From IMG/VR virus record IMGVR_UViG_3300006752_005121, positions 1 through 22,099 of that record: 22,099 nt of DNA; one strand, written 5' to 3'. The notes beneath the pieces were generated by a model. The model had not been told where the DNA came from and searched no databases. It worked only from the letters and a program-made list of their open reading frames with translations. The first letter of the stretch is position 1. Each line of letters begins with the position of its first letter. This DNA comes from a virus. Positions 5,491 to 21,758 of the stretch are shown in pieces. The translations under genes and the position numbers were made by a program.

Positions 5491-6115
5491 CGGCGTTACC
5501 CCTTTGATTACTAATAGCTTCAGCCAATGCTTTGCCTATTGTCTCAAGTGAACCGACAGGCAACTTTAAGCGGGCTTCAGCTTCGCTTGTGATCTGTGCT
5601 TTGTCTTTGTTATTGGCGGGGCTTTGCTGGTCTTCAGGTATCGCTTCAAGCCCGCACAGTTTAGCTTGACGCGCGCCTGTATCAACAATCATCTTAAGAT
5701 ATGATAATTGTTCTTTAAAGTCAGCGCCTTCATGTTCACCCTTTTCATAAAGCCGCCATAATTCAGACTTTACGCGGTCAGCCTCTATATACAACTTCTC
5801 ACGGCGCTGGTTAAGCGCCCCGCGTGTCATAGTGTTTGCCCAGCGCGCAATCACTTCTTTGCGTAGTATGCCCGCCGTGCGTGAACTTAGCCCCGTCTTG
5901 CTTGCAATCTCAGTTGTTGTTTCAATGCCGCGTGTTATCATCATCTCAACAGCAAGCACCCAGCGTTCACGGGTGAAATCATCAAAGCCTTTGAGCGTCA
6001 CGGGTATGTCAATACCTTTCAGGCGCGGGTCAACGTGCGTCAAATCCCGTGATGAATCGTCAACGAGTTCAACCGTCTCAACATCTGTAAAAGGTAATTT
6101 AGGTAAGCGTTTCAT
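5483..6115 (-). CDS. terS: Probable terminase small subunit (DNA-binding)
   Basis: The 210-aa protein has a helix-turn-helix-like segment at about residues 58-93 (GIETTTEIASKTGLSSRTAG, then a helix RKEVIARW). A long charged helical region (about 100-150) suits oligomerisation. The C-terminus is polar and probably flexible. Small terminases recognise the packaging site and have this layout; its place directly upstream of terL with an 8-bp overlap is the strongest evidence. The start ATG at 6115 lies inside the helicase gene (17-bp overlap), with ACGGGTG upstream and an ACAAG at 6129-6133. It could instead be another HTH regulator, but the context favours TerS. Confidence 0.75.
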   Translation of the reverse strand: MKRLPKLPFTDVETVELVDDSSRDLTHVDPRLKGIDIPVTLKGFDDFTRERWVLAVEMMITRGIETTTEIASKTGLSSRTAGILRKEVIARWANTMTRGALNQRREKLYIEADRVKSELWRLYEKGEHEGADFKEQLSYLKMIVDTGARQAKLCGLEAIPEDQQSPANNKDKAQITSEAEARLKLPVGSLETIGKALAEAISNQRGNADE

Positions 6116-7784
6116 ATTTCACCCGTATCTTGTCAGCATAACACAGGCGCAAAGGCTGTTGTGTACTCTCCTGAACAACATAAGACTGTTTTATTGCACG
6201 CCGCAATGCTGAACCAAATATTGAGAAGTGAAACACACTGACAGTAACCTCATCAGCGGCTTGACCTGTTCTGTGTGTGCGTGCAATCAACTGTTCATAC
6301 ATTGAAGGGTCAGCAAGGGGGTGCGCAATGATGTTGCGTGACCATGCTTGCAAGTTCTTACCTGTTGCGTGTGCCTTAATACTCATCACACATGTTACAG
6401 CCTTGTCAGGTAGAGTTGCGCCCGCCCCGAAGTATGGTATATCAAGCCGCGCCGCTATGCGCTCACCTATGGCTTGAAGGTCAACCCATATGATGACGGG
6501 GTGTGTGTCACGCCGCGCAAGTTTACACACCGCATCAATAAAATAGTCACTGACCCAGTGTTGATGCTTCGGTGGCGGTTCGCGGTGCTTGACCGCCGCC
6601 CATTCATCCCTCGCTGTGCTGAACAGGTCATGCAAGTCATCATCAAGTTCATTGAAGCGGTTAAATATAAGCGCGGGTGAATCAAGCTCATCTTGATACT
6701 CAAGCAACTTGCGCACCGCTCTTGACCAGTTACGGCGTGCGTTCAACCATTCATCATCACGCTTGCCTACCCAGTGCCACACATACAGACAGCCCATTGT
6801 GACCTGACCTAGCGCACGCAACGCAAACGCGTCATCATCAGCCCAAAGGTGATCACTTTCACTTAAGACATTTGCGTCAATATACTTTTCAAGCCCTTCA
6901 ACAACACCGTCAGCAAAGCACTGATTGATTGCGTCCCGCAACTCATCAGGCACGCTCATTTCAATTTGCTCAAGCCGCAATGATGACTTCACTTGTTCAT
7001 CACTTGTGAACATTACGCCGCCCGCTTTTGAGAGTGTGTCATATAAGGCGGCGCGGGGCTTGCGCCCTTTTAGCCACTTTGAGAAAGCGGCATATTCAAA
7101 GCGGTCAGCGTCACCCGTCAATAAGTTGTCAAGTGAGGTCACATCTCGACTGTTGCGCGGCACGGGTGATGCTTCTTCAAGCGCCCAGTCTGCAAGGTGT
7201 GCAAAGTCACCCACTGTTTTATTAAATAGTGTACCGCTCATAACAATAAACTTACAGGCGCGTTGCTCAAATAAATACTTACCCAGCCGCCGCGTGCGGG
7301 TGCTGTGCAATGACTTAATCTTGTGCGCCTCATCACACACAATAAGTTGCGGTGCGTAGTCTCGTAAAGCGTTCACGCCGCTTTCACGGCTTAAGCGTTC
7401 ATAAGATATAAGCACGGGTGTGGTGAAGTTGAAGTGTTTACGATATTCACCCGCCTCAACTCGCGTCTTTTCTATGAGCGCGGCGGGCAACAGTAGCACA
7501 ACGCGTTCAACGTCTAGCACGCGCCCCAGTAATAACGTGATCAAGGTTTTACCGTGCCCGCAACCGATACCCCCCACAAAGCCCCCGCCTTGATCACGCG
7601 CCGTGATCAGCGCCTTGTTTTGACTAGCGCGCAAGCGCATTGTGCCGTTGACCGTCTTGAGCGCGTCAGTAAGGTCACTCTCAACATATGTGTAAGCGGG
7701 TAATCGAGACAGGCGCACAGCTTCACTGACAGCAACAGGCGCGCGCGCCTTGTGCTTCATCAGGTGCGCGAGTTGCGGGGTCAT
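6099..7784 (-). CDS. SNF2-like superfamily 2 helicase/ATPase
   Basis: DNA-dependent ATPase of 561 aa. Walker A GIGCGHGKT (72-80), motif II DEAH (151-154), motif III SGT (183-185) and motif VI QLIARTHRTGQ (498-508) are all visible. The last has the arginine fingers in the QxxxRxxRxGQ form typical of SNF2-type and related phage helicases. RecA-like domain 1 covers roughly residues 48-200 and domain 2 roughly 430-520. The inserted middle region is rich in Asp and Trp. Such proteins occur in phage replication and recombination cassettes with PolA and VirE-type primase-helicases, where they may remodel DNA or drive branch migration. The start overlaps the upstream nuclease stop as ATGA (4 bp), so translation is probably coupled. 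Confidence 0.92.
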   Translation of the reverse strand: MTPQLAHLMKHKARAPVAVSEAVRLSRLPAYTYVESDLTDALKTVNGTMRLRASQNKALITARDQGGGFVGGIGCGHGKTLITLLLGRVLDVERVVLLLPAALIEKTRVEAGEYRKHFNFTTPVLISYERLSRESGVNALRDYAPQLIVCDEAHKIKSLHSTRTRRLGKYLFEQRACKFIVMSGTLFNKTVGDFAHLADWALEEASPVPRNSRDVTSLDNLLTGDADRFEYAAFSKWLKGRKPRAALYDTLSKAGGVMFTSDEQVKSSLRLEQIEMSVPDELRDAINQCFADGVVEGLEKYIDANVLSESDHLWADDDAFALRALGQVTMGCLYVWHWVGKRDDEWLNARRNWSRAVRKLLEYQDELDSPALIFNRFNELDDDLHDLFSTARDEWAAVKHREPPPKHQHWVSDYFIDAVCKLARRDTHPVIIWVDLQAIGERIAARLDIPYFGAGATLPDKAVTCVMSIKAHATGKNLQAWSRNIIAHPLADPSMYEQLIARTHRTGQAADEVTVSVFHFSIFGSALRRAIKQSYVVQESTQQPLRLCYADKIRVKYETLT

Positions 7785-8854
7785 TGGCCTATCACAACCT
7801 TTTGCGCGGCGCTGTGTAGCGCGTCACAACACTTCTCATACAAGGGTGAACGGCTGTGTGCAAAGTAGTGACCAGCGGGCAAACCGTCATTCATAATTAG
7901 GGCTGACAGAAGGTCATATCCCTGTGCGTATGGTATAAGTGAGATGTGTTCAACCCCCTTGCTTGTGCATACCTTATCAACAAGCGGTTTTAAACCGTCA
8001 CTTAGGGGTGTAAGCGTTACGCCCAGCGGTACACAATTGACGTACAGGTGTGCGTCACTTGTCTTCACGTCACTTGTCTTCACGTCACTTGTCACAGGGG
8101 GCTTCACGCCGCGTAAACGGTCGATCACAGCTAGTTGTTTATCACTCATGTTCTTGATTCCTTTATGGTTTATTGTGCGCTGGCAATCATCAAAGTAAGG
8201 GCAACGCTTACCATATGCCCAGCAGTGGTCTTTATTCTTCAGCATTGTTGTGGCGGGCAACTCACACGCCGCAACCATATCTTTAACTGTTTCAAGTATG
8301 TCTAAGAATCGTTCTTCAACGTGCGCCCTAGACACAAGCGTTGATGTGCGCTGACTCTTATAAGGGGGCTTTGTAAGATAACAAACGTGGGTTAATCTTA
8401 TGTAGTCTGCATCACAGTTGTTGAGCGCGTGCGCCGCATAAATAATCAGCTGTGTATCTTCAGCGAGTTGTTCAGCGGTCAGCGCATACTTAAAGTTTGA
8501 TGTTGTCTTATGGTCAAGTATTTCAGGTGTGTCACCTACAACATAAAGGTCAATGAATCCTTTGAAGGGGGCGGGCGTGTCATAAATGGGCAACTCTGCA
8601 AGTGATATTTCAACATGATACTCACCTGTCAGTGTGGGCAAGTGATGAAGCCCCGCCTGTGCAATTAACCCTTCATCTGTATCATCAGGCACTTGCCCGT
8701 TTAACAGATACTCTTCAAGGTATTCATGCACCTTGTTGCCGCGTATCATTGCCTTTGATGACGGCTCACGTTTATCGAGCACATACCGTTCAAACCAGCG
8801 GCGCGGGCACGACTTGAAAAGTTTTATTGATGTTGCAGAAACGTGAGTCAGCAC
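7781..8854 (-). CDS. PD-(D/E)XK nuclease with Fe-S cysteines (RecB/Cas4-like)
   Basis: 357-aa nuclease. It begins with the family hallmark ATSIKLFKSCPRRWFERY. Visible active-site residues are H43, D102 (GFIDLY), D114-H-K116 (the D-x-K of ILDHKTT), then Q135 and Y139. One N-terminal cysteine (C16) and three C-terminal ones (C211, C218, C224 in CWAYGKRCPYFDDC) would hold a 4Fe-4S cluster, as in Cas4 and AddB. After the cluster a tandem TSDVK linker (about 255-267) leads to an extra C-terminal domain of about 90 aa that I do not recognise. The start is GTG at 8852-8854; the next Met is residue 36 and would remove the Cys16 region. It overlaps the upstream gene by 7 bp. Likely role: DNA end processing in replication or recombination. 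No other cas genes are present. Confidence 0.9.
   Translation of the reverse strand: MLTHVSATSIKLFKSCPRRWFERYVLDKREPSSKAMIRGNKVHEYLEEYLLNGQVPDDTDEGLIAQAGLHHLPTLTGEYHVEISLAELPIYDTPAPFKGFIDLYVVGDTPEILDHKTTSNFKYALTAEQLAEDTQLIIYAAHALNNCDADYIRLTHVCYLTKPPYKSQRTSTLVSRAHVEERFLDILETVKDMVAACELPATTMLKNKDHCWAYGKRCPYFDDCQRTINHKGIKNMSDKQLAVIDRLRGVKPPVTSDVKTSDVKTSDAHLYVNCVPLGVTLTPLSDGLKPLVDKVCTSKGVEHISLIPYAQGYDLLSALIMNDGLPAGHYFAHSRSPLYEKCCDALHSAAQKVVIGQ
8053..8094 (-). repeat. 15-bp tandem repeat in the nuclease linker
   Basis: A 15-bp unit (CGTCACTTGTCTTCA on the rightward strand) occurs twice exactly at 8053-8082 and again for 11 bases from 8083. It is in frame and encodes TSDVK repeats in the linker between the Fe-S nuclease core and the C-terminal domain. 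Length changes here would alter spacing without breaking the frame. Confidence 0.9.
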
Positions 8855-9087
8855 AGTTGTGACCTTACCTGTTCAAGCGTGACTTCAGTATTAATGAGCA
8901 TGTCAAGCACGCCGTTTGCATTGGCATCTGATACAGATAGAAGTGAAGCGGCGGTGTCTCTGTGTCCTGATCTTATCAGGTGCTGTAATATAGCGCGTTG
9001 TAAATCATCTCTTAAAACTGTGTTGTCTCTCAACAGCGGCTCAACTAGGTCATAGACCAACGCCGCCGTGTGTTCATCAGTTGTCAT
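8848..9087 (-). CDS. Small acidic hypothetical protein, 79 aa
   Basis: Not recognised. It is predicted to be almost wholly helical and acidic, with leucine-rich helices (DLVEPLLRDNTVLRDDLQRA and AASLLSVSDANANGVLDMLI), and no membrane segment or catalytic motif. It is the first gene of the leftward operon; the ATG at 9087 follows AAGGCACAAGA, giving a good ribosome-binding site. Its stop overlaps the nuclease start by 7 bp. As a leader gene next to the origin-like region it could be a small regulator or adaptor for the replication proteins; this is inference. Confidence 0.75.
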   Translation of the reverse strand: MTTDEHTAALVYDLVEPLLRDNTVLRDDLQRAILQHLIRSGHRDTAASLLSVSDANANGVLDMLINTEVTLEQVRSQLC

Positions 9088-9121: not shown

Positions 9122-9150
9122 ACTATAGTCACAAAAGGCGCGAGTGTAAA
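9122..9150 (-). promoter_or_regulatory. Sigma70-type promoter of the leftward operon
   Basis: On the leftward strand, -35 TTTACA (9145-9150), an exact 17-bp spacer and -10 TATAGT (9122-9127). Transcription would start near 9115, about 28 nt before the ATG at 9087. The iteron-like repeats (9173-9272) lie directly upstream, where a bound initiator or regulator could act. Confidence 0.75.
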
Positions 9151-9172
9151 CACATAAAACCACATACCTTAT

Positions 9173-9272
9173 ACTGTACAAGCACAGTTATTGTGTAGTG
9201 TGCAACGCTTTTAGTAATCACGTTGTACAGTTCTAAAACTGTGCAAGTGGCTTATGTTGACGTTGCACACTA
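9173..9272. repeat. Iteron-like cluster with nested inverted repeats
   Basis: Five sites fit the consensus TTGYACASTW in either orientation: ACTGTACAA (9173-9181, reverse), TAGTGTGCAA (9196-9205, reverse), TTGTACAGTT (9223-9232), AACTGTGCAA (9237-9246, reverse) and TTGCACACTA (9263-9272). Two pairs share one centre near 9234. The outer pair is a perfect 12-bp inverted repeat (9196-9207 with 9261-9272); the inner pair has one mismatch in ten (9223-9232 with 9237-9246). This looks like binding sites for a dimeric protein, such as a replication initiator or a repressor. Confidence 0.85.
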
Positions 9273-9334
9273 TGAAATCGTCTTAATGAAAACAAGCACT
9301 TAGAACACGCTGAACACAGTTATAGAGAACTTGT

Positions 9335-9392
9335 AAACATAAATAAATATAGTTTATGCATTTATATTTATTGCTGATATTTATTTATGTTT
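9335..9392. repeat. 16-bp perfect AT-rich inverted repeat
   Basis: AAACATAAATAAATAT (9335-9350) and its exact reverse complement (9377-9392) flank a 26-nt AT-rich spacer. The tract contains only one G/C pair per arm and could form a cruciform or melt easily. It lies 60 bp to the right of the TTGYACASTW cluster, between divergent replication operons. No U-run follows, so it does not look like an intrinsic terminator. A -10-like TATAGT lies at 9349-9354 on the rightward strand but has no -35 partner. Confidence 0.9.
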
Positions 9393-9482
9393 CAGTGTAC
9401 GGGCAATTTGTGTTCACCATGTTCTTGCACGCTTGCAAAGGTGGTGTTAGGGTGCACACGGAAACAAAAGAGAAAGGGTAAG

Positions 9483-9641
9483 ATGATGATGATTAACAGG
9501 CTAACACGCGCCGCGCCTGTGATGATGCGCGCGTATGATACTGACCCGCTGGAAGTGCTCACAGAAAGCACTTGTAAACCGCTCACGGCTGTATTACAGT
9601 TACAGGCGCTGTGTTCAACCTTTAATCACAAGAGAGCTTAA
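9483..9641 (+). CDS. Small hypothetical protein, 52 aa
   Basis: Short ORF starting with three successive ATG codons (9483, 9486, 9489) behind the strong site AGAAAGGG; the spacing favours the second ATG (7 nt) but cannot settle it. The product is basic at the N-terminus (NRLTRAAPVMMRAY) and ends near FNHKRA; I see no known domain. Its stop lies 3 bp before the primase-helicase start, so it probably leads that operon and may help couple translation. It is too short to exclude a leader-peptide role. Confidence 0.5.
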   Translation: MMMINRLTRAAPVMMRAYDTDPLEVLTESTCKPLTAVLQLQALCSTFNHKRA

Positions 9642-9644
9642 TCA

Positions 9645-12497
9645 ATGGCACAAGAGTCATATTACCCGACAGCAACACAGTCTGTGTTGCCCCCTATGCC
9701 CCCCGCGTTAAACGGCAAGATGTACCATGCACAGCGCACGGTCAAACAGAACCATTTAAACAACCCCACAACCTACACTCAGAACTGGGTGATAACAGGG
9801 TATTTCCCTGACCCGTCACAACAGAAACAAAAGGCGCTGGGTAAGATTGCGGCCTGTTACATTGACTTTGATTTAACTGATACACTTGTTCATCAGGGGT
9901 ATGCACCCCGCGCAAAAGAGCGGCTGATTGAGAATAATATAACGTCGCTATATAAAGACCGTCAGCCCGTTGCGGTTGCTGATCTTGACCCGAATGATAA
10001 ACGGCACGCCCCTGACCTTGTAAAAGCCGTCTTATCATTTATGCCCGTTGATGATCTAAAGCGCCTGACCGCACAACACTTCACGCCCATACTCACAAAT
10101 CAGTTTGTGCCGTACATAGGCAAGCCGTCACTCATTACTTACACGGGTCACGGTTGTCATGCATACTATTGGCTTGATGATAATGAAGGTTACACAGTAC
10201 ACGGGGCGGGGCTTGCGCCTGATCATGTGAAGGTTAATGCGGATGACCTTAAGCGGTACTTTAAAGCGGTGTATGCTCAATGTAATGGGGCACTAGGTTA
10301 TCAAGCTGTTGATCCTAAAGTTTCGGACTTAGGCACACGTTGCACCCGTGAACTCAGCACCGTTAACCGCAAGAACAGTGCAAACCCTAAAACAGTTGAA
10401 CGGTTCTTGCGTGAGCATACTGATGACGGGCGGCGCGTAACGCTTGCGGGATTCACCCCCCTTGTTGAAAAGACTAACTTTATTGAACAGATAGCCGCCG
10501 CAACCTCATCAAATCAGGGGCGGGGTAGACCGCCCAAGTTCAAGCCCGTCAATGTGCGATTTGATGAAGAAGTGTTTGTTGAGGTTGCGGGGCAAGTCCA
10601 CACAATGAGCGTTGCTGATTTCAACAAGAACTTTGATGACCTGATGAGCCAGCAAGGGCAAACAGATAAGGTGCGCAATGTGCGCCTTGCTCAGTTAGGT
10701 CAGGGTTCAATGAACATGTTTGCAACGCGTTCAGGTGATGGTGTCATGTTTGTGCTTACAGCCTCTAAGTATATGCAACAGGGTGATACACACTGGAGAG
10801 TTGATACAGCGGGAAATTATAACGGATTCTATAAGTTTGACGGGCTTGTCTTTGAGTTAATCCGTAATGAGCGCGGCGCGGTGCGTAAGAACTCATCGAA
10901 CTTGCAACAGATCTTATTGCACGACGGGCGCACGGCGGGGTTACTTCAGTATAACTCACGTCTTGAACAGGTGTTTGTTCACCGTGACCTTCACCTTGAT
11001 GTATACGGCGCGGTTGACCGCGAGGTCAGAATAGCACGCTCAGCAGAGTGGTTTAAGTTTAAAGACGCGCATTACATCACATTTGAAAAGGTGTTCAATC
11101 ACCCTTATGCACTTGATAACGTGCCCGACGGTCAAATAAGCCGCGTTGTGAGATCTGTTGCAATGCAACGCGCATTTGACCCCGTGACCGCTTGGATAGA
11201 GTCCTTACAGTGGGATAATAAGAGACGGCTTGACGGGGCTGATAGTTGGCTTTGTAACCTTTTGAACTTGCCCGCTGATCACCCTAAGCGTGAGTTATAT
11301 TCAGCTTATGGGCGTGCCGTTATGTTAGGGATATTAAGGAACATTTATGTGGGTAACACTTACCCTGACGTTCAACACGTTCTAACGCTTGCGGGCGGTC
11401 AGGGTGTGGGCAAGTCACTGTGCGCCGCTGTGCTGGGGTTAACTGAGACATTAGGCATGGATTATTTTCATGATAGCGGCATTGATATGGGTGCGGGCGC
11501 TCACAAGGGTGATCAGATCGCATCAATGCTGGGTTGTTTTCTTGTAGAGTTGCCCGAAGCAATAAGCCTGTCAAGCAACAGCACAGACGCATCAATCAAA
11601 GCGTTTCTTACTACTAAGAAGGATAAGGGGCGCTTTGCATTTGGGCGTGAACATGAAGAGAGGTTAAGAGCAACCTATTTTATCACAAACAGTAATGATA
11701 ACATATTCTTAAGCGATCACACAGGAAACCGCCGTTATCTTGTGCTTGATTGTTTTGATGATCTCAACACGCCTGACCAGCGCCTTGATATTGACGGTGT
11801 GCGTGATGTTTTGCCACAGTTATACGCTGAAGCGTACCAGCGTTGTGTGTTAGGTCAGAACATACCCCGTGAGCGTCATCAAGATACGCGCAAGTATGAA
11901 GGGGTGATATGTGAAGAATGGAATTTAACCGCAATTGAGCGCGGCTGGCAAGCGGCGCACAACATGAAGTTCACACAACCTGATTACATTGTTGAAGAAC
12001 TGAGTGACATACTATCAGAGGAGTTAGAACGGGGTATCTCATGCGTGTCATACGCTGAAGTAAAACGGAAACTGTCAACGCGCGACCCCGCCGCCCGTTT
12101 GAGCAATGTTAAGTTTGCAAATGCAATGACGCGGTGCGGCTGGCGGCGCGCAACCGTTAAAGGGAAGAATTTATGGTTACCCCTTGATGCACATACAGAA
12201 CCGCGTGAGCGTGTTGAGCCTGTAAAGAGCGTTAAGATTACAGCAACCTCACAAGGGGGCGTGACAATCACACAGGCAACACCGCCCCCGCTCAAGCCTG
12301 TCACAGATTTGACGACCGCGCTTGATACATTATCCCGCGCTGACTTTAGACAGTTATGCACATCTGAAAGTATTAAAAGAATAGTGCGCATCAAAGAGAG
12401 CATTGACAGCACCGCTGATGTGCAACCCGCGCAAGTTGCGCTGTTACTGAGATATGTGAATTGTGAGATAAACGCACAGGCATTGAACGCGCTATAA
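9645..12497 (+). CDS. Primase-polymerase/VirE-type helicase fusion
   Basis: 950-aa replication protein. The N-terminal third fits an archaeo-eukaryotic-type primase (prim-pol): motif I YIDFDLTD (D74, D76), motif II GHGCHAYYW (H172) and a motif III-like segment DLGTRCTRELSTVNRKN (228-244). The C-terminal half is a VirE-like superfamily 3-type ATPase: Walker A GGQGVGKS (584-591), Walker B-like CFLVELPE (631-638), the TKKDKGRFAFGRE segment, and a GNRRYLVLD arginine-finger block (694-702). It would open the origin, prime synthesis and unwind DNA for the polymerase at 1118-3283. The start ATG at 9645 follows CAAGAGAGC with 7-nt spacing. The extreme C-terminus (about 880-950) is variable-looking. 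Prim-pol activity is inferred from motifs; the helicase call is firm. Confidence 0.92.
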   Translation: MAQESYYPTATQSVLPPMPPALNGKMYHAQRTVKQNHLNNPTTYTQNWVITGYFPDPSQQKQKALGKIAACYIDFDLTDTLVHQGYAPRAKERLIENNITSLYKDRQPVAVADLDPNDKRHAPDLVKAVLSFMPVDDLKRLTAQHFTPILTNQFVPYIGKPSLITYTGHGCHAYYWLDDNEGYTVHGAGLAPDHVKVNADDLKRYFKAVYAQCNGALGYQAVDPKVSDLGTRCTRELSTVNRKNSANPKTVERFLREHTDDGRRVTLAGFTPLVEKTNFIEQIAAATSSNQGRGRPPKFKPVNVRFDEEVFVEVAGQVHTMSVADFNKNFDDLMSQQGQTDKVRNVRLAQLGQGSMNMFATRSGDGVMFVLTASKYMQQGDTHWRVDTAGNYNGFYKFDGLVFELIRNERGAVRKNSSNLQQILLHDGRTAGLLQYNSRLEQVFVHRDLHLDVYGAVDREVRIARSAEWFKFKDAHYITFEKVFNHPYALDNVPDGQISRVVRSVAMQRAFDPVTAWIESLQWDNKRRLDGADSWLCNLLNLPADHPKRELYSAYGRAVMLGILRNIYVGNTYPDVQHVLTLAGGQGVGKSLCAAVLGLTETLGMDYFHDSGIDMGAGAHKGDQIASMLGCFLVELPEAISLSSNSTDASIKAFLTTKKDKGRFAFGREHEERLRATYFITNSNDNIFLSDHTGNRRYLVLDCFDDLNTPDQRLDIDGVRDVLPQLYAEAYQRCVLGQNIPRERHQDTRKYEGVICEEWNLTAIERGWQAAHNMKFTQPDYIVEELSDILSEELERGISCVSYAEVKRKLSTRDPAARLSNVKFANAMTRCGWRRATVKGKNLWLPLDAHTEPRERVEPVKSVKITATSQGGVTITQATPPPLKPVTDLTTALDTLSRADFRQLCTSESIKRIVRIKESIDSTADVQPAQVALLLRYVNCEINAQALNAL

Positions 12498-14014: not shown

Positions 14015-14047
14015 TTAGGCTGAACACAGCAAACAGTCATTGATTCA

Positions 14048-14094
14048 CCAGCACACGCCCGCATCTCACAATGATGCGGGCGTGTGTTGGTTTT
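14048..14094 (+). terminator. Intrinsic terminator after the rightward replication block
   Basis: An 18-bp stem with one G-U pair (14048-14065 with 14073-14090) encloses a 7-nt loop TCACAAT. The inner 14 bp are perfect and GC-rich (CACACGCCCGCATC), and TTTT follows at 14091-14094. It lies 33 bp after the SSB-like stop codon. No T-run exists on the other strand, so it acts rightward only. It separates replication genes from the late block. Confidence 0.93.
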
Positions 14095-14520: not shown

Positions 14521-16971
14521 ATGGCTATCTTAACAGGTAAAGGTACAACGTTCACCATTGCAACAGATGAGGAGGCGTTTAGCGGTGCAAATGTTAATAA
14601 GGCAATCACACCTGATCAATTAATGACTGTTGTGTCACAGGGTGTTGCGGCGGTTGCTGGGGGGCTTGTATATAAGGGTGTGTTTGATGCAACGGCGTTG
14701 ACCCCTGACTTATCAAATGCTCGACAGGGTGACTTTTATAAGGTCAGCGTCGCTGATACCGCTTTTGGGCAAGCGTTTGCTGTCAGTGATATGCTTTTGA
14801 TCAATGCTGATATGAACGGCGCAATTGATGCGGGCAAAGTTGACAAGATTGACAACGGTGAAAGCCTTGCCCAGCTAGATGACATCAGTGACGTTGTGTT
14901 AACTAATACCGCAACAGGGCAAGTATTGCGGTATGACGGCGCGCAGTGGATCAATGAAGAGGTCAGCGCAAATGACCTGACCAGCGATCACACAGGCGTG
15001 AACTATACAGGCGCGAACACAGACTCAATCACGGCTCACTTGTCAGGTGTCGATGCTGAGTTAAACAACCGCGCTGACACAGTGAACAGTCAATCTGTTG
15101 TGAACGGCGCTGTGACAATCGCGAGTGATGACATTGTAGGTGAGCACACGGGCGTGAACTATACAGGCGCTAACACAGACTCAATCACGGCTCACTTATC
15201 AGGTATTGATACCGCGCTAGCCAGCGCGGGCGGCGGGGTCGCACCTACGTTGCTTGATGACCGTTCGATTATAAATAACCTTGCTATCAATACTGAGTAT
15301 GTTATCTCACCAACCCTAACAGGTAGTATTCAGGTGCGTGTTCCCGCGCATGGTAGTGGTTCAATTGTTGATGGTAGCACCATACTTGTAACGAATCTAT
15401 CAGCACACGCTGTGCTTGTTTCTCTGTATGACACTAGCGGTCAGGGTGCGCTATATTATGCTGACGGCACAGCCGCACCCACTGTTGCAGTATACACAAG
15501 ACGGCTCACCATTGAAGCACAAGGCACAATAAGGCTGTATCAATCAGGTGCGGGTGACCCTGTAAAGTGGTACTGTTTCACGTCGCCAGCTTTTGAAGTA
15601 GAGACAGCAACTAGCGCCTTAAGCACAGGCGCCGCGCTGAACTATGATACAGGCCGTAAAGCTTTCTTAAACGCGGGTGCGGTACATGGTGAGGTAGTTC
15701 TAACAGGTAACATCTCAAAGACTGTTTACGCGCGTCATAAGTATGTGACATCTTATGATGAGACAACAGCGCGCACAATATCATTACCTGATATATACAG
15801 CGCCAATGACTTTGTGAACGGTTTAGATGGTAATCGGTTCTATGTTGAGAATAGAGGTTCATCAACGCTGACTGTTAATCTCTTTAATGCTTACAATTTC
15901 CAGAACGGGATAACCTATAGGTCTTACCTAAAACGATTTGATAGCAGTGCACTCAGTGGTAACACATACACCTTACAGGCTGGTGAACGCGTAGTCATTG
16001 AGACTCTAGTGGAGAACCAAAGCGGCACTTTCTTAGTAGTCAATTATAGACTAGGTGAGTTCACGCCTGTGAGTGTAACGGAGGTAGACGCGAGCGGTAC
16101 TAACTCAACAATCACACACGGTAATGAGGATAGACTAGTTTACATCGTTAACACCGCTAGTGATGTGACCATTACGCTCCCTTCTTTGGCTGATTGCAAG
16201 CCGAGTTATGAGGTAGTGGTCAAGAGTCTAGGCACAGGCACAACGACCGTTGAGCGAGATGGTACTAACACATTCGATGGGCTGACTTCGTTTGATCTCT
16301 CACAAAATGGTCATATTGCTCTCTCACGCATCTCAATTGCCACGTGGGCAATCACAAGCACCGTTGCCCCTGAGTCGTCCGATGACCTGACCAGCGATCA
16401 CACAGGCGTTAATTACGTCGGTTCTGATACGGACACGCTAACCACTCATCTCTCAGGGATTGATAGTGAGTTCAACAACCGCGCTGAGATCGTTAACGGC
16501 CAAGCTGTTGTGAACGGCGCTGTGACAATCGCTAGTGATGACATTGTAGGTGAGCACACGGGCGTGAACTATACAGGCGCTAACACCGCCTCAATCACGG
16601 CTCACTTGTCAGGTATTGATACCGCTTTAGCGTCTGCTGGTGGTGGTGGTGGTGTTCCTACTGTGACATCACTTAGCGGTAATGCTACAGAGACACTAGG
16701 TGTTGCGTCAGGTAGTGAAGAGATATATTTACTTAATCAAAGTGGGGTTGATGTGTATATGAATAGCGCATCTTCTGCTGGCGAAGGGTTTAAATATACC
16801 TTTAAGAATAAGTCAACAGGCGGTTATTATTTCGCTACGCCCACAATCCACGTCAACGCTTCGTCAAGTGATACTATTGATGATGGAGCTACTACGAGTG
16901 TTCCTCTAGGTAACACATACGACGCTATCACGCTTGTAAGTGATGGTACTTCACAATGGTATATAATCTAA
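14521..16971 (+). CDS. Tail-fibre/virion structural protein, 816 aa
   Basis: The N-terminal region carries phrases common in phage fibre and structural proteins: GLVYKGVFDAT, ARQGDFYKVSV, and LDDISDV followed by GQVLRYDGAQW (about residues 48-144). Then comes an 88-residue module (152-239) containing two DHTGVNYTGANTDSITAHLSGID-type repeats 52 residues apart. An almost complete second copy lies at 622-709, and a Gly-rich hinge follows each copy. The segment between (240-621) is beta-rich and resembles receptor-binding shaft domains. The C-terminus (about 715-816) forms another beta domain. HLSGID-type repeats are usual in trimeric fibres. GAGG precedes ATG at 14521. Adsorption is the likely role, but a non-receptor structural role is possible. 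Confidence 0.8.
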   Translation: MAILTGKGTTFTIATDEEAFSGANVNKAITPDQLMTVVSQGVAAVAGGLVYKGVFDATALTPDLSNARQGDFYKVSVADTAFGQAFAVSDMLLINADMNGAIDAGKVDKIDNGESLAQLDDISDVVLTNTATGQVLRYDGAQWINEEVSANDLTSDHTGVNYTGANTDSITAHLSGVDAELNNRADTVNSQSVVNGAVTIASDDIVGEHTGVNYTGANTDSITAHLSGIDTALASAGGGVAPTLLDDRSIINNLAINTEYVISPTLTGSIQVRVPAHGSGSIVDGSTILVTNLSAHAVLVSLYDTSGQGALYYADGTAAPTVAVYTRRLTIEAQGTIRLYQSGAGDPVKWYCFTSPAFEVETATSALSTGAALNYDTGRKAFLNAGAVHGEVVLTGNISKTVYARHKYVTSYDETTARTISLPDIYSANDFVNGLDGNRFYVENRGSSTLTVNLFNAYNFQNGITYRSYLKRFDSSALSGNTYTLQAGERVVIETLVENQSGTFLVVNYRLGEFTPVSVTEVDASGTNSTITHGNEDRLVYIVNTASDVTITLPSLADCKPSYEVVVKSLGTGTTTVERDGTNTFDGLTSFDLSQNGHIALSRISIATWAITSTVAPESSDDLTSDHTGVNYVGSDTDTLTTHLSGIDSEFNNRAEIVNGQAVVNGAVTIASDDIVGEHTGVNYTGANTASITAHLSGIDTALASAGGGGGVPTVTSLSGNATETLGVASGSEEIYLLNQSGVDVYMNSASSAGEGFKYTFKNKSTGGYYFATPTIHVNASSSDTIDDGATTSVPLGNTYDAITLVSDGTSQWYII
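14974..15237 (+). repeat. 264-bp module, copy 1 of a duplication in the fibre gene
   Basis: Encodes residues 152-239 of the fibre-type protein, from DLTSDHTG to the Gly-rich end. Copy 2 is at 16384-16647 and is the same length with no indels. The first 26 bases are identical in both copies; the rest of the first half has diverged. The second half (from about 15105) differs at only a handful of positions over some 115 bases. Confidence 0.93.
16384..16647 (+). repeat. 264-bp module, copy 2 of a duplication in the fibre gene
   Basis: Encodes residues 622-709, in the same frame as copy 1 (14974-15237). The patchy identity, nearly exact in the second half but diverged in the first, suggests recombination or gene conversion between copies. 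The two copies frame a 1.1-kb central segment as direct repeats. Confidence 0.93.
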
Positions 16972-20162: not shown

Positions 20163-21758
20163 ATGGGTTTATTTGACTGGTTTAAAAGTGACACGGATAA
20201 CGTCAACACTGATGATGAAGTGTTTAAGGCGTTGCCCGCCCCCAGCGCAAAAGCTCCGTCACCGTCAAGTCATCAGGTCAACGCAAGTGACATTGCAAAT
20301 GCCTACATGCTAGAAGGTATGAATGAAGGGGGTGAAACGTCACGCGGTTTAGATTATGACCAACTTCTATCAATGACAAGAGTGCCGTTGATAGCATCAA
20401 TAATTCAAACGCGTATTAATCAGGTTGCTGAGTTTGCAACACCGTCAAAAGACGGTAATGATATAGGTTTCATGATCAGGTTAAAAGACCGTGACGCAAT
20501 GCCCAGCAAGCAAGACACGCAATACATTCAAGAACTGTATCAGTTTATTGTTGATTGCGGTGACAACCGCATTGCGCATGACACAAACTTTGAATCATTC
20601 TTGCGTATGCTTGTGCGGGATTCACTAACATATGATCAAGCTTGTTTCGAGGTTATACGCAACAGGGGGGGTGACGTTGCGGGCTTTGTTAATGTAGACA
20701 GCCGCACAATAAGGCGTACAAAGATGAGCGCCGCTGAAAAGTCAGCGGGGCGGCGTGATGCGAACAAACCGCAATATGTTCAAGTGATTGACCATAAACC
20801 CAAAGCTGAATTTATGGGCGCTGATATGTGCTTTGGTGTACGCCGCCCCCGTTCAGATTTGCGTTTTCACGGTTACGGTTTCCCTGAACTTGAAGAAGCA
20901 ATAGGACTGATTACAAACCTATTAAACGCTGATATATTCAACGCGGCAAACTTTACAAACGGCATATCTGTTGCGGGCATTATTGCGGTTAAGAGCAAGA
21001 TGAACCCCCAGTTGTTCAGATCGTTCAGGCGTGAGTTTTATCAAATGCTTAGCGGGTCAGCAAACGCAAAGAAAACGCCGCTAGTCCAGCTTGACCCTGA
21101 CAGTAATGAAGATTTAAAGGCGCTTAATCTCTCATCTAGTAATAAAGATATGGAGTTTCAACAGTGGCAACATTACCTGATGAAATGCATCTGTGCGTTG
21201 TATCAGATTGACCCTATGGAGCTAGGCTTTCATTTTGGGCAAGAAGGTGTGCGTTCAGCACTGAATCAAGGCACAGGTGTTGACCGTGCATTAATGAGTA
21301 AAGAAAAGGGTTTGCGCCCCCTATTAAGAGCGGTTCAACAGTGGCTAAACCGCTATGTTGTTAATCAGTTAGATGACCGCTTTGAATTAGTGTTTACAGG
21401 GCTTGATGCAACAACGGTTCAAGAGCAACTTAAGATGAACATTGATAAAGTCAGATCACTCATGACAATAAATGAAGTGCGGGCGTTGTATGACCTTCCA
21501 TCATTGCCCAACGGTGACACTATACTTGACCCGACATTTATTAATGCGTTCAGCACAGCGCCTCAACAATTTACAGGTGTTGAGGATGACACAGGTGTTG
21601 AGGATGACACAGGTGTTGAGGATGACACAGGTGTTGAGGATGACACAGGTGTTGAGGCTGACACAGGTGTTGAGGATGACACAGGTGTTGAGGATGACAC
21701 AGGTGTTGAGGATGAAGCCGTTAACAGAGTTTATACAGTGAAACTTAACAATGAATAA
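20163..21758 (+). CDS. Phage portal protein with acidic repeat tail
   Basis: 531-aa portal, the dodecameric ring at the capsid vertex through which DNA passes. It shows the usual pattern: a variable start, SMTRVPLIASIIQTRINQVAEFA (about 78-100), a central region with DSLTYDQACFEVIRNRGGDVAGF, the YGFPELEEAIGLITNLLNAD helix, and the crown region ending near residue 470. It resembles HK97-type portals. GAGG precedes ATG at 20163. After residue 470 comes an acidic tail of eight TGVEDD-type repeats (471-518), unusual for portals. It would partner the TerL at 3817-5490, which lies on the opposite strand. Confidence 0.92.
   Translation: MGLFDWFKSDTDNVNTDDEVFKALPAPSAKAPSPSSHQVNASDIANAYMLEGMNEGGETSRGLDYDQLLSMTRVPLIASIIQTRINQVAEFATPSKDGNDIGFMIRLKDRDAMPSKQDTQYIQELYQFIVDCGDNRIAHDTNFESFLRMLVRDSLTYDQACFEVIRNRGGDVAGFVNVDSRTIRRTKMSAAEKSAGRRDANKPQYVQVIDHKPKAEFMGADMCFGVRRPRSDLRFHGYGFPELEEAIGLITNLLNADIFNAANFTNGISVAGIIAVKSKMNPQLFRSFRREFYQMLSGSANAKKTPLVQLDPDSNEDLKALNLSSSNKDMEFQQWQHYLMKCICALYQIDPMELGFHFGQEGVRSALNQGTGVDRALMSKEKGLRPLLRAVQQWLNRYVVNQLDDRFELVFTGLDATTVQEQLKMNIDKVRSLMTINEVRALYDLPSLPNGDTILDPTFINAFSTAPQQFTGVEDDTGVEDDTGVEDDTGVEDDTGVEADTGVEDDTGVEDDTGVEDEAVNRVYTVKLNNE
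21573..21716 (+). repeat. 18-bp tandem repeat, eight copies, in the portal gene
   Basis: ACAGGTGTTGAGGATGAC is repeated eight times without gaps. The fifth copy has GCT for GAT (TGVEAD) and the last ends GAA (TGVEDE). It encodes a highly acidic tail of six-residue units. The near-perfect identity suggests recent slippage; copy-number change would keep the frame. Confidence 0.97.

Follow-up and report, generated by a model that had tools for sequence, protein, structure and literature searches.

A candidate iteron-type replication origin at the divergent junction of a phage with a VapE-type primase-helicase

Introduction

Does the intergenic region from which the replication genes of this phage diverge start DNA replication, or does it control the genes on either side? 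The region lies in a stretch of 22,099 bp, here called the window, which is a whole IMG/VR virus record and probably a fragment. A preliminary description had offered two readings: an origin built of iterons and a melting tract, or a shared operator for a lytic switch. Comparison with related phages supports the array of sites and the melting-type AT-rich core on which that description relied, and proves neither option. From sequence comparison and analogy with known systems, region 9172-9470 is here proposed as a candidate replication origin of the iteron/DUE kind, of which each genome would have at least two, with a probability slightly above one half (about 0.55).

Results

Site array

All five perfect matches to TTGYACASTW in the window fall within 101 bp (9172-9272; Table 1). 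The binomial probability of this cluster over the 22,099 bp scanned is 5.5e-10, a value that is optimistic because the motif was derived from the cluster itself; all motif P values, for the window and for relatives, likewise concern motifs picked out of the clusters being scored. Four of the sites form nested dyads. The outer dyad pairs TAGTGTGCAACG (9196-9207) with CGTTGCACACTA (9261-9272) as a perfect 12-bp inverted repeat centered at 9234.0, and the inner dyad pairs TTGTACAGTT (9223-9232) with AACTGTGCAA (9237-9246) over 10 bp with one mismatch, centered at 9234.5. Both dyads had been noticed in the preliminary description, as had the further motif copy, which is placed here at 9172-9181 rather than 9173-9181. 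The dyad units 9196-9232 and 9237-9272 lie about 40 bp apart from center to center. A perfect 12-bp inverted repeat arose in 0.6% of 3000 local Markov shuffles, and the repeats of the window are real and beyond chance. Generic EM motif finding on the window was set aside, as its result was diffuse and barely over its own null.

AT-rich core and palindrome

To the right of the sites lies a perfect 16-bp AT-rich inverted repeat centered at 9363.5, also correctly described earlier, which was reproduced in 0 of 3000 local Markov shuffles. This repeat is the core of a larger, imperfect palindrome of 220 bp with the same center, which was absent from the preliminary description. The palindrome scores 27, against a mean of 11.7 and a maximum of 21 for dinucleotide shuffles (0/200 reaching the score); its flanks without the AT arms exceed all shuffles (0/1000), and intergenic self-BLAST recovers it with an E value of 2.7e-14. 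A 17-bp inverted pair shares the center and flanks the core. No other 58-bp stretch of the window is as rich in AT as the one that the core overlaps (top 0.01% of stretches of this length), and similar AT extremes are found in most elements of the relatives described below. The sites stand to the left of the core, and the right side holds only a degenerate mirror. Scans of viral_contigs returned no match to the exact window palindrome or dyad.

Table 1. Features of the junction region and its flanking genes (window coordinates)
Feature	Position	Strand	Basis or remark
Site 1, TTGTACAGTA	9172..9181	-	perfect TTGYACASTW match
Site 2, TTGCACACTA; outer dyad arm reaches 9207	9196..9205	-	motif match and inverted repeat
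Site 3, TTGTACAGTT; inner dyad	9223..9232	+	motif match and inverted repeat
Site 4, TTGCACAGTT; inner dyad	9237..9246	-	motif match and inverted repeat
Site 5, TTGCACACTA; outer dyad arm from 9261	9263..9272	+	motif match and inverted repeat
Imperfect palindrome around AT core	9251..9470		self-BLAST, alignment, shuffles
17-bp pair, left arm, AGAACACGCTGAACACA	9302..9318		88% complementary to 9409-9425
17-bp pair, right arm, TGTGTTCACCATGTTCT	9409..9425		inverted-repeat search, comparison; resembles GTTCACGTGGTTC of G008/G009
Candidate unwinding element, most AT-rich 58 bp (86%)	9331..9388		AT scan of window
16-bp AT-rich inverted repeat, left arm	9335..9350		inverted-repeat search
16-bp AT-rich inverted repeat, right arm	9377..9392		inverted-repeat search
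Degenerate right-hand mirror of site 5 (TAGGGTGCAC)	9448..9457		palindrome alignment; weak
Sigma-70-like promoter candidate, leftward operon, TTTACA-17-TATAGT	9122..9150	-	consensus match only
79-aa helical protein	8848..9087	-	perhaps distantly related to the 78-79-aa HTH-like proteins that L005, L006, L013 and L020 encode at this place
PD-(D/E)XK nuclease, first large gene of leftward replication/TerL operon	7781..8854	-	PF12705
SNF2-like helicase	6099..7784	-	phrog_62
52-aa ORF, purine-rich ribosome-site-like stretch upstream	9483..9641	+	ORF list, family searches; no family match
950-aa VapE-type primase-helicase, candidate initiator	9645..12497	+	PF05272 E 1.3e-29; PHROG helicase/primase; structure model

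Gene neighborhood and promoters

Gene calls and family matches confirm the earlier statement that transcription diverges at the region, with replication genes on its flanks. Leftward lie the 79-aa protein, the nuclease, the SNF2-like helicase, a 210-aa protein (TerS-like, judged by its position beside the terminase), TerL and PolA. Rightward, the 52-aa ORF is followed by the primase-helicase and, farther on, by ThyX, dCMP deaminase and portal genes. The C-terminal part of the VapE-type protein models as a winged helix, and its Foldseek neighbors include many winged helices, none of them significant in PDB; with a mean pLDDT of 76-79, the structure models deserve medium confidence. The leftward promoter candidate, the sole strong promoter match here, lies outside the motif sites, and the promoter scan gave no rightward match. 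No repressor, as a lytic-switch operator would call for, was recognized among the window genes examined.

Other repeats of the window lie at some distance. A 45-bp palindrome at 14047-14091, 80% self-complementary and built on a perfect GC-rich stem of 14 bp (14052-14065/14073-14086 region), comes just after the 13550-14014 gene and is probably a transcription terminator. A 250-bp duplication, 84% identical, falls inside an 816-aa gene (14972-15221 and 16382-16631), and a short tandem repeat at 21573-21715 encodes a repeated TGVEDD near the portal C-terminus.

Cumulative GC skew, suggested earlier as a check, has its minimum near the element both in the window (10,144) and in the relative G005 (15,205), but this minimum is inseparable from gene direction, and the skew differs among relatives. 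Skew was therefore rejected as an arbiter between origin and regulation, being confounded by gene direction.

The junction in related phages

A locus search with VapE only gave no loci; alignments recovered diverged relatives of the replication block, and no close ones were found. Genes of the relatives are longest-ORF calls, and elements were matched across genomes by position and layout, not by sequence. Given its terminal repeat, near-identical over 1.26 kb, G001 is treated as complete; the remaining records are known or possible fragments. The PD-(D/E)XK/primase-helicase junction is common to L004/G004, L005/G001, L006/G002, L013/G003 and L007/G005, and all six phages examined in detail (window included) carry arrays or inverted repeats in it, with a motif that differs between genomes. 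For instance, there are 13 CTAGTGKV sites in G001, eight GACCACTAR-type sites in G002 and six TGACCACTAR-type sites in G003, whereas G004 and G005, which also have the divergent junction, contain no CACTA-type array: G004 has an 18-bp, 94% inverted pair (AGGGAGGGTAGGGAACCC) and lacks a strong AT core, and G005 has a 24-bp TGTTGGC-type inverted pair. The L005 array is a tandem of inverted site pairs of about 42 bp. The TAGTG core of G001-G003 is found again in the outer sites of the window (TAGTGTGCAA), and the octamer TAGTGTGC is common to the window and G002. A seventh relative, L112/G007, has no array at the junction, with only about 130 bp between PD-(D/E)XK and the next gene; a strong palindrome lies in its intergenic gap upstream of polA. 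On alignment with related phages, which the preliminary description had recommended, layout and position prove conserved but the motif does not.

Four relatives encode a small HTH-like protein at the junction. This gene has a palindrome of its own upstream, TTAAGATAT..ATATCTTAA, seen upstream of the 78-aa gene in L005 and L006 and at L020 1-30, and possibly its own operator, which argues against the 79-aa protein as binder of the window sites. That protein was rejected as a binder also on its model, without a significant PDB match, and on its weak homology to other small proteins.

The more distant relatives G010-G012, in which a VapE homologue is not detectable, contain TTGYACASTW matches that are isolated, with no surrounding array, and were dismissed as chance or homologous coding sequence. 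Runs of the GGGGGGAGGGGGG type abound in intergenic palindromes of these genomes (G010 33.1-34.0 kb, G011 6.3-7.0 kb, G012 16.6-17.2 and 57.5-57.7 kb). The nearest phages by TerL (74-75% aa) and PolA (50-53%), L096-L098/G008 and G009, show no SNF2/PD-(D/E)XK block beside TerL in the parts covered, so that this block may have changed place or been swapped for another. By eye, the genes at L147 7493-8269 (G008) and L118 2693-3508 (G001) encode nucleotidyl-cyclase-like N-termini, with no Pfam match at E 0.01.

Further elements in the same genomes

Among the long relatives, one genome (about 73 kb) has four elements with the same motif and three others have two. The four, in G001, are CTAGTGGA clusters at 10.7, 30.9, 56.6 and 66.5 kb of the whole record, and their gaps are the only palindromic maxima of the genome above the threshold used. 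Identity among these copies is about 64-93% over stretches of at most 390 bp; they occur in both orientations and head the divergent junction, the capsid operon, the ribonucleotide reductase (RNR) operon and a small-gene operon. A G001 gene at 63.8-65.9 kb, considered as PolA, is ribonucleotide reductase.

The commonest second location is within the late genes, with portal and DUF5824 before it and an HTH-like gene of about 250 aa, the head protease and capsid after it. The gene beside this element, considered as MuF, is DUF5824 (PF19141), and the gene of about 250 aa is conserved, with a weak HTH signal. A second late-gene element with the genome's own motif occurs in G001, in G002 (23.7-24.0 kb) and in G004 (a second GGGAGGG pair at 35.6-35.8 kb). 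At the same position, eight CCACTAA copies are found in G006, and an AT core between GTGGTTCACGTGGTTCAC arms in G008/G009; the window inner pair (GTTCACCATGTTC) and the G008/G009 arms (GTTCACGTGGTTC) are alike at 10 of 13 positions. The window stops short of the late-gene position, so that the second late-gene element is seen in relatives only. Two AGTTAAGAT elements occur in G013, where no VapE homologue was detected; one of them directly precedes a primase-like gene and PD-(D/E)XK. The motif sites of relatives are confined to their elements much as in the window, and in some of these elements the core is flanked by sites to its left and right. A sigma-70 promoter scan of two relative elements gave about as many matches as chance predicts.

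Discussion

Origin or operator

The comparison suggests a shared design: a genome-specific array of sites, often with an inner inverted pair, around an AT-extreme spot at fixed positions. The motif changes in concert within each genome, as expected for the sites of one co-evolving trans-acting protein. Origin function is favored because SPP1 and PICI origins are of like design, with the same components, and the comparative evidence appears to fit an origin better than an ordinary gene switch or operator. In favor of an origin are the confinement of the sites to the element, the AT extreme and a palindrome beyond all shuffles; repeats at the same junction in G001-G005 and upstream of the primase-like gene in G013; the late-gene elements of G001, G002 and G004 and those at the same position in G006, G008 and G009; promoter matches no more frequent than chance; and the VapE C-terminus, modeled as a winged helix. 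Against it, up to four elements per genome are many for origins, and every element heads a gene block, as regulatory sites would. The missing CACTA-type arrays of G004 and G005, the lack of a strong AT core in G004, the L112/G007 junction without an array and a GC skew that cannot separate replication from gene direction also count against it.

The main rival is an operator at operon heads for a co-evolving DNA-binding protein, which would time early, replication and late expression from two to four transcription-unit starts. This control region is distinctly less likely than an origin; in its favor, every element heads a gene block. The binder could be the HTH-like protein of about 250 aa, whose conserved gene lies beside the late element, or the 79-aa protein, given the small HTH-like proteins encoded at the junction in four relatives. 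However, none of the window sites overlaps the one strong promoter match, the scanned elements show no enrichment of promoter matches, and the head of an operon read in a single direction has no need of a symmetric palindrome centered where the genome is richest in AT; moreover, in a compact phage genome most large gaps between genes stand at operon heads in any case. The occurrence of one motif at two to four places in several relatives suits multi-origin and multi-operator models alike.

Origin and operator may also be joined. In iteron plasmids and phage lambda, origins are combined with regulatory elements and the initiator represses its own operon. An origin within a divergent regulatory region would accord with the placement between divergent operons beside the helicase gene and with the leftward promoter candidate adjoining the array, but it leaves the relatives' elements between co-directional late genes unexplained, and we consider it improbable. 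Least probable are dispersed non-autonomous (MITE-like) repeats and packaging or recombination sites. The variable identity, length and two orientations of the G001 copies recall mobile repeats, yet a mobile repeat would bring its own sequence and a packaging site is normally single; both readings are disfavored because the elements occupy orthologous positions in diverged phages with different motifs.

Proposed mechanism and meaning

In the origin reading, a phage initiator would bind the clustered 10-bp TTGYACASTW sites, probably including the inner inverted pair, and open the adjoining AT-rich palindromic core, where the VapE-type primase-helicase, whose gene lies 175 bp farther right, could then be loaded to begin replication. 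The initiator may be the VapE C-terminal winged helix or another phage protein, such as the HTH-like protein of about 250 aa beside the second element. As with oriL and oriR of SPP1, the complete genome would probably have at least two origins of this kind. As a tentative generalization, which we hold at somewhat less than even odds, a clade of tailed phages with VapE-type (and other) primase-helicases would carry two to four dispersed, palindromic iteron origins of the PICI/SPP1 kind, placed at the replication junction and within the late genes, with concerted motif turnover at fixed positions.

If the region is an origin, the iteron/AT layout of PICI-like origins exists in full tailed phages, and the co-evolving motifs, at two to four copies per genome, form a natural series for tracing the passage from theta to concatemeric replication and a tractable means to ask which protein reads the sites. 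If it is an operator, the series represents a regulon code in which positions are fixed and words change fast. Under either reading, the binding protein can be sought by co-variation.

Comparison with known systems

Mycobacteriophage stoperators and other multi-site repressor operators place one short motif at several intergenic locations, as do these phages; stoperators are single directional sites, whereas the sites here are clustered around AT-rich palindromes. The phage P4 alpha protein combines primase and helicase activities (PMC7145576), and the primase-helicase encoded beside repeats is likened to P4 alpha and its ori by description, not by sequence.

SPP1 oriL and oriR consist of direct repeats and an AT-rich unwinding element (PMC6316719; PMC3485210), and these two similarly organized origins are bound by one protein, gp38, with oriR interrupting the late morphogenesis genes (PMC6316719). 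The window likewise has a repeat cluster confined to one element with an AT-rich stretch (86%, 58 bp) adjoining, and G001, G002 and G004 add a second element within the late genes, a position before which the window ends. SPP1 differs in having gp40, a DnaB-type helicase, where the helicase here is VapE-type; moreover, the sites here are inverted and palindromic, with motifs that change from one relative to the next, and one relative contains four copies.

In PICI/SaPI (Pri-Rep) origins, an AT-rich region lies between two sets of iterons, beside the gene for the primase/initiator-helicase (PMC6092414). The PICI ori lies immediately 3' of rep in satellites, whereas these are full tailed phages (the window encodes TerL, portal and PolA) whose element lies on the 5' side of the helicase gene, has several copies and, in the window, has sites almost all on one side. 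For the DNA-binding domain of a helicase-initiator, the window offers the winged-helix-like model of the VapE C-terminus, without a significant PDB match. Conversely, iterons and an AT-rich region beside a helicase gene are common to both systems, and several elements of relatives have, like PICI origins, sites on both sides.
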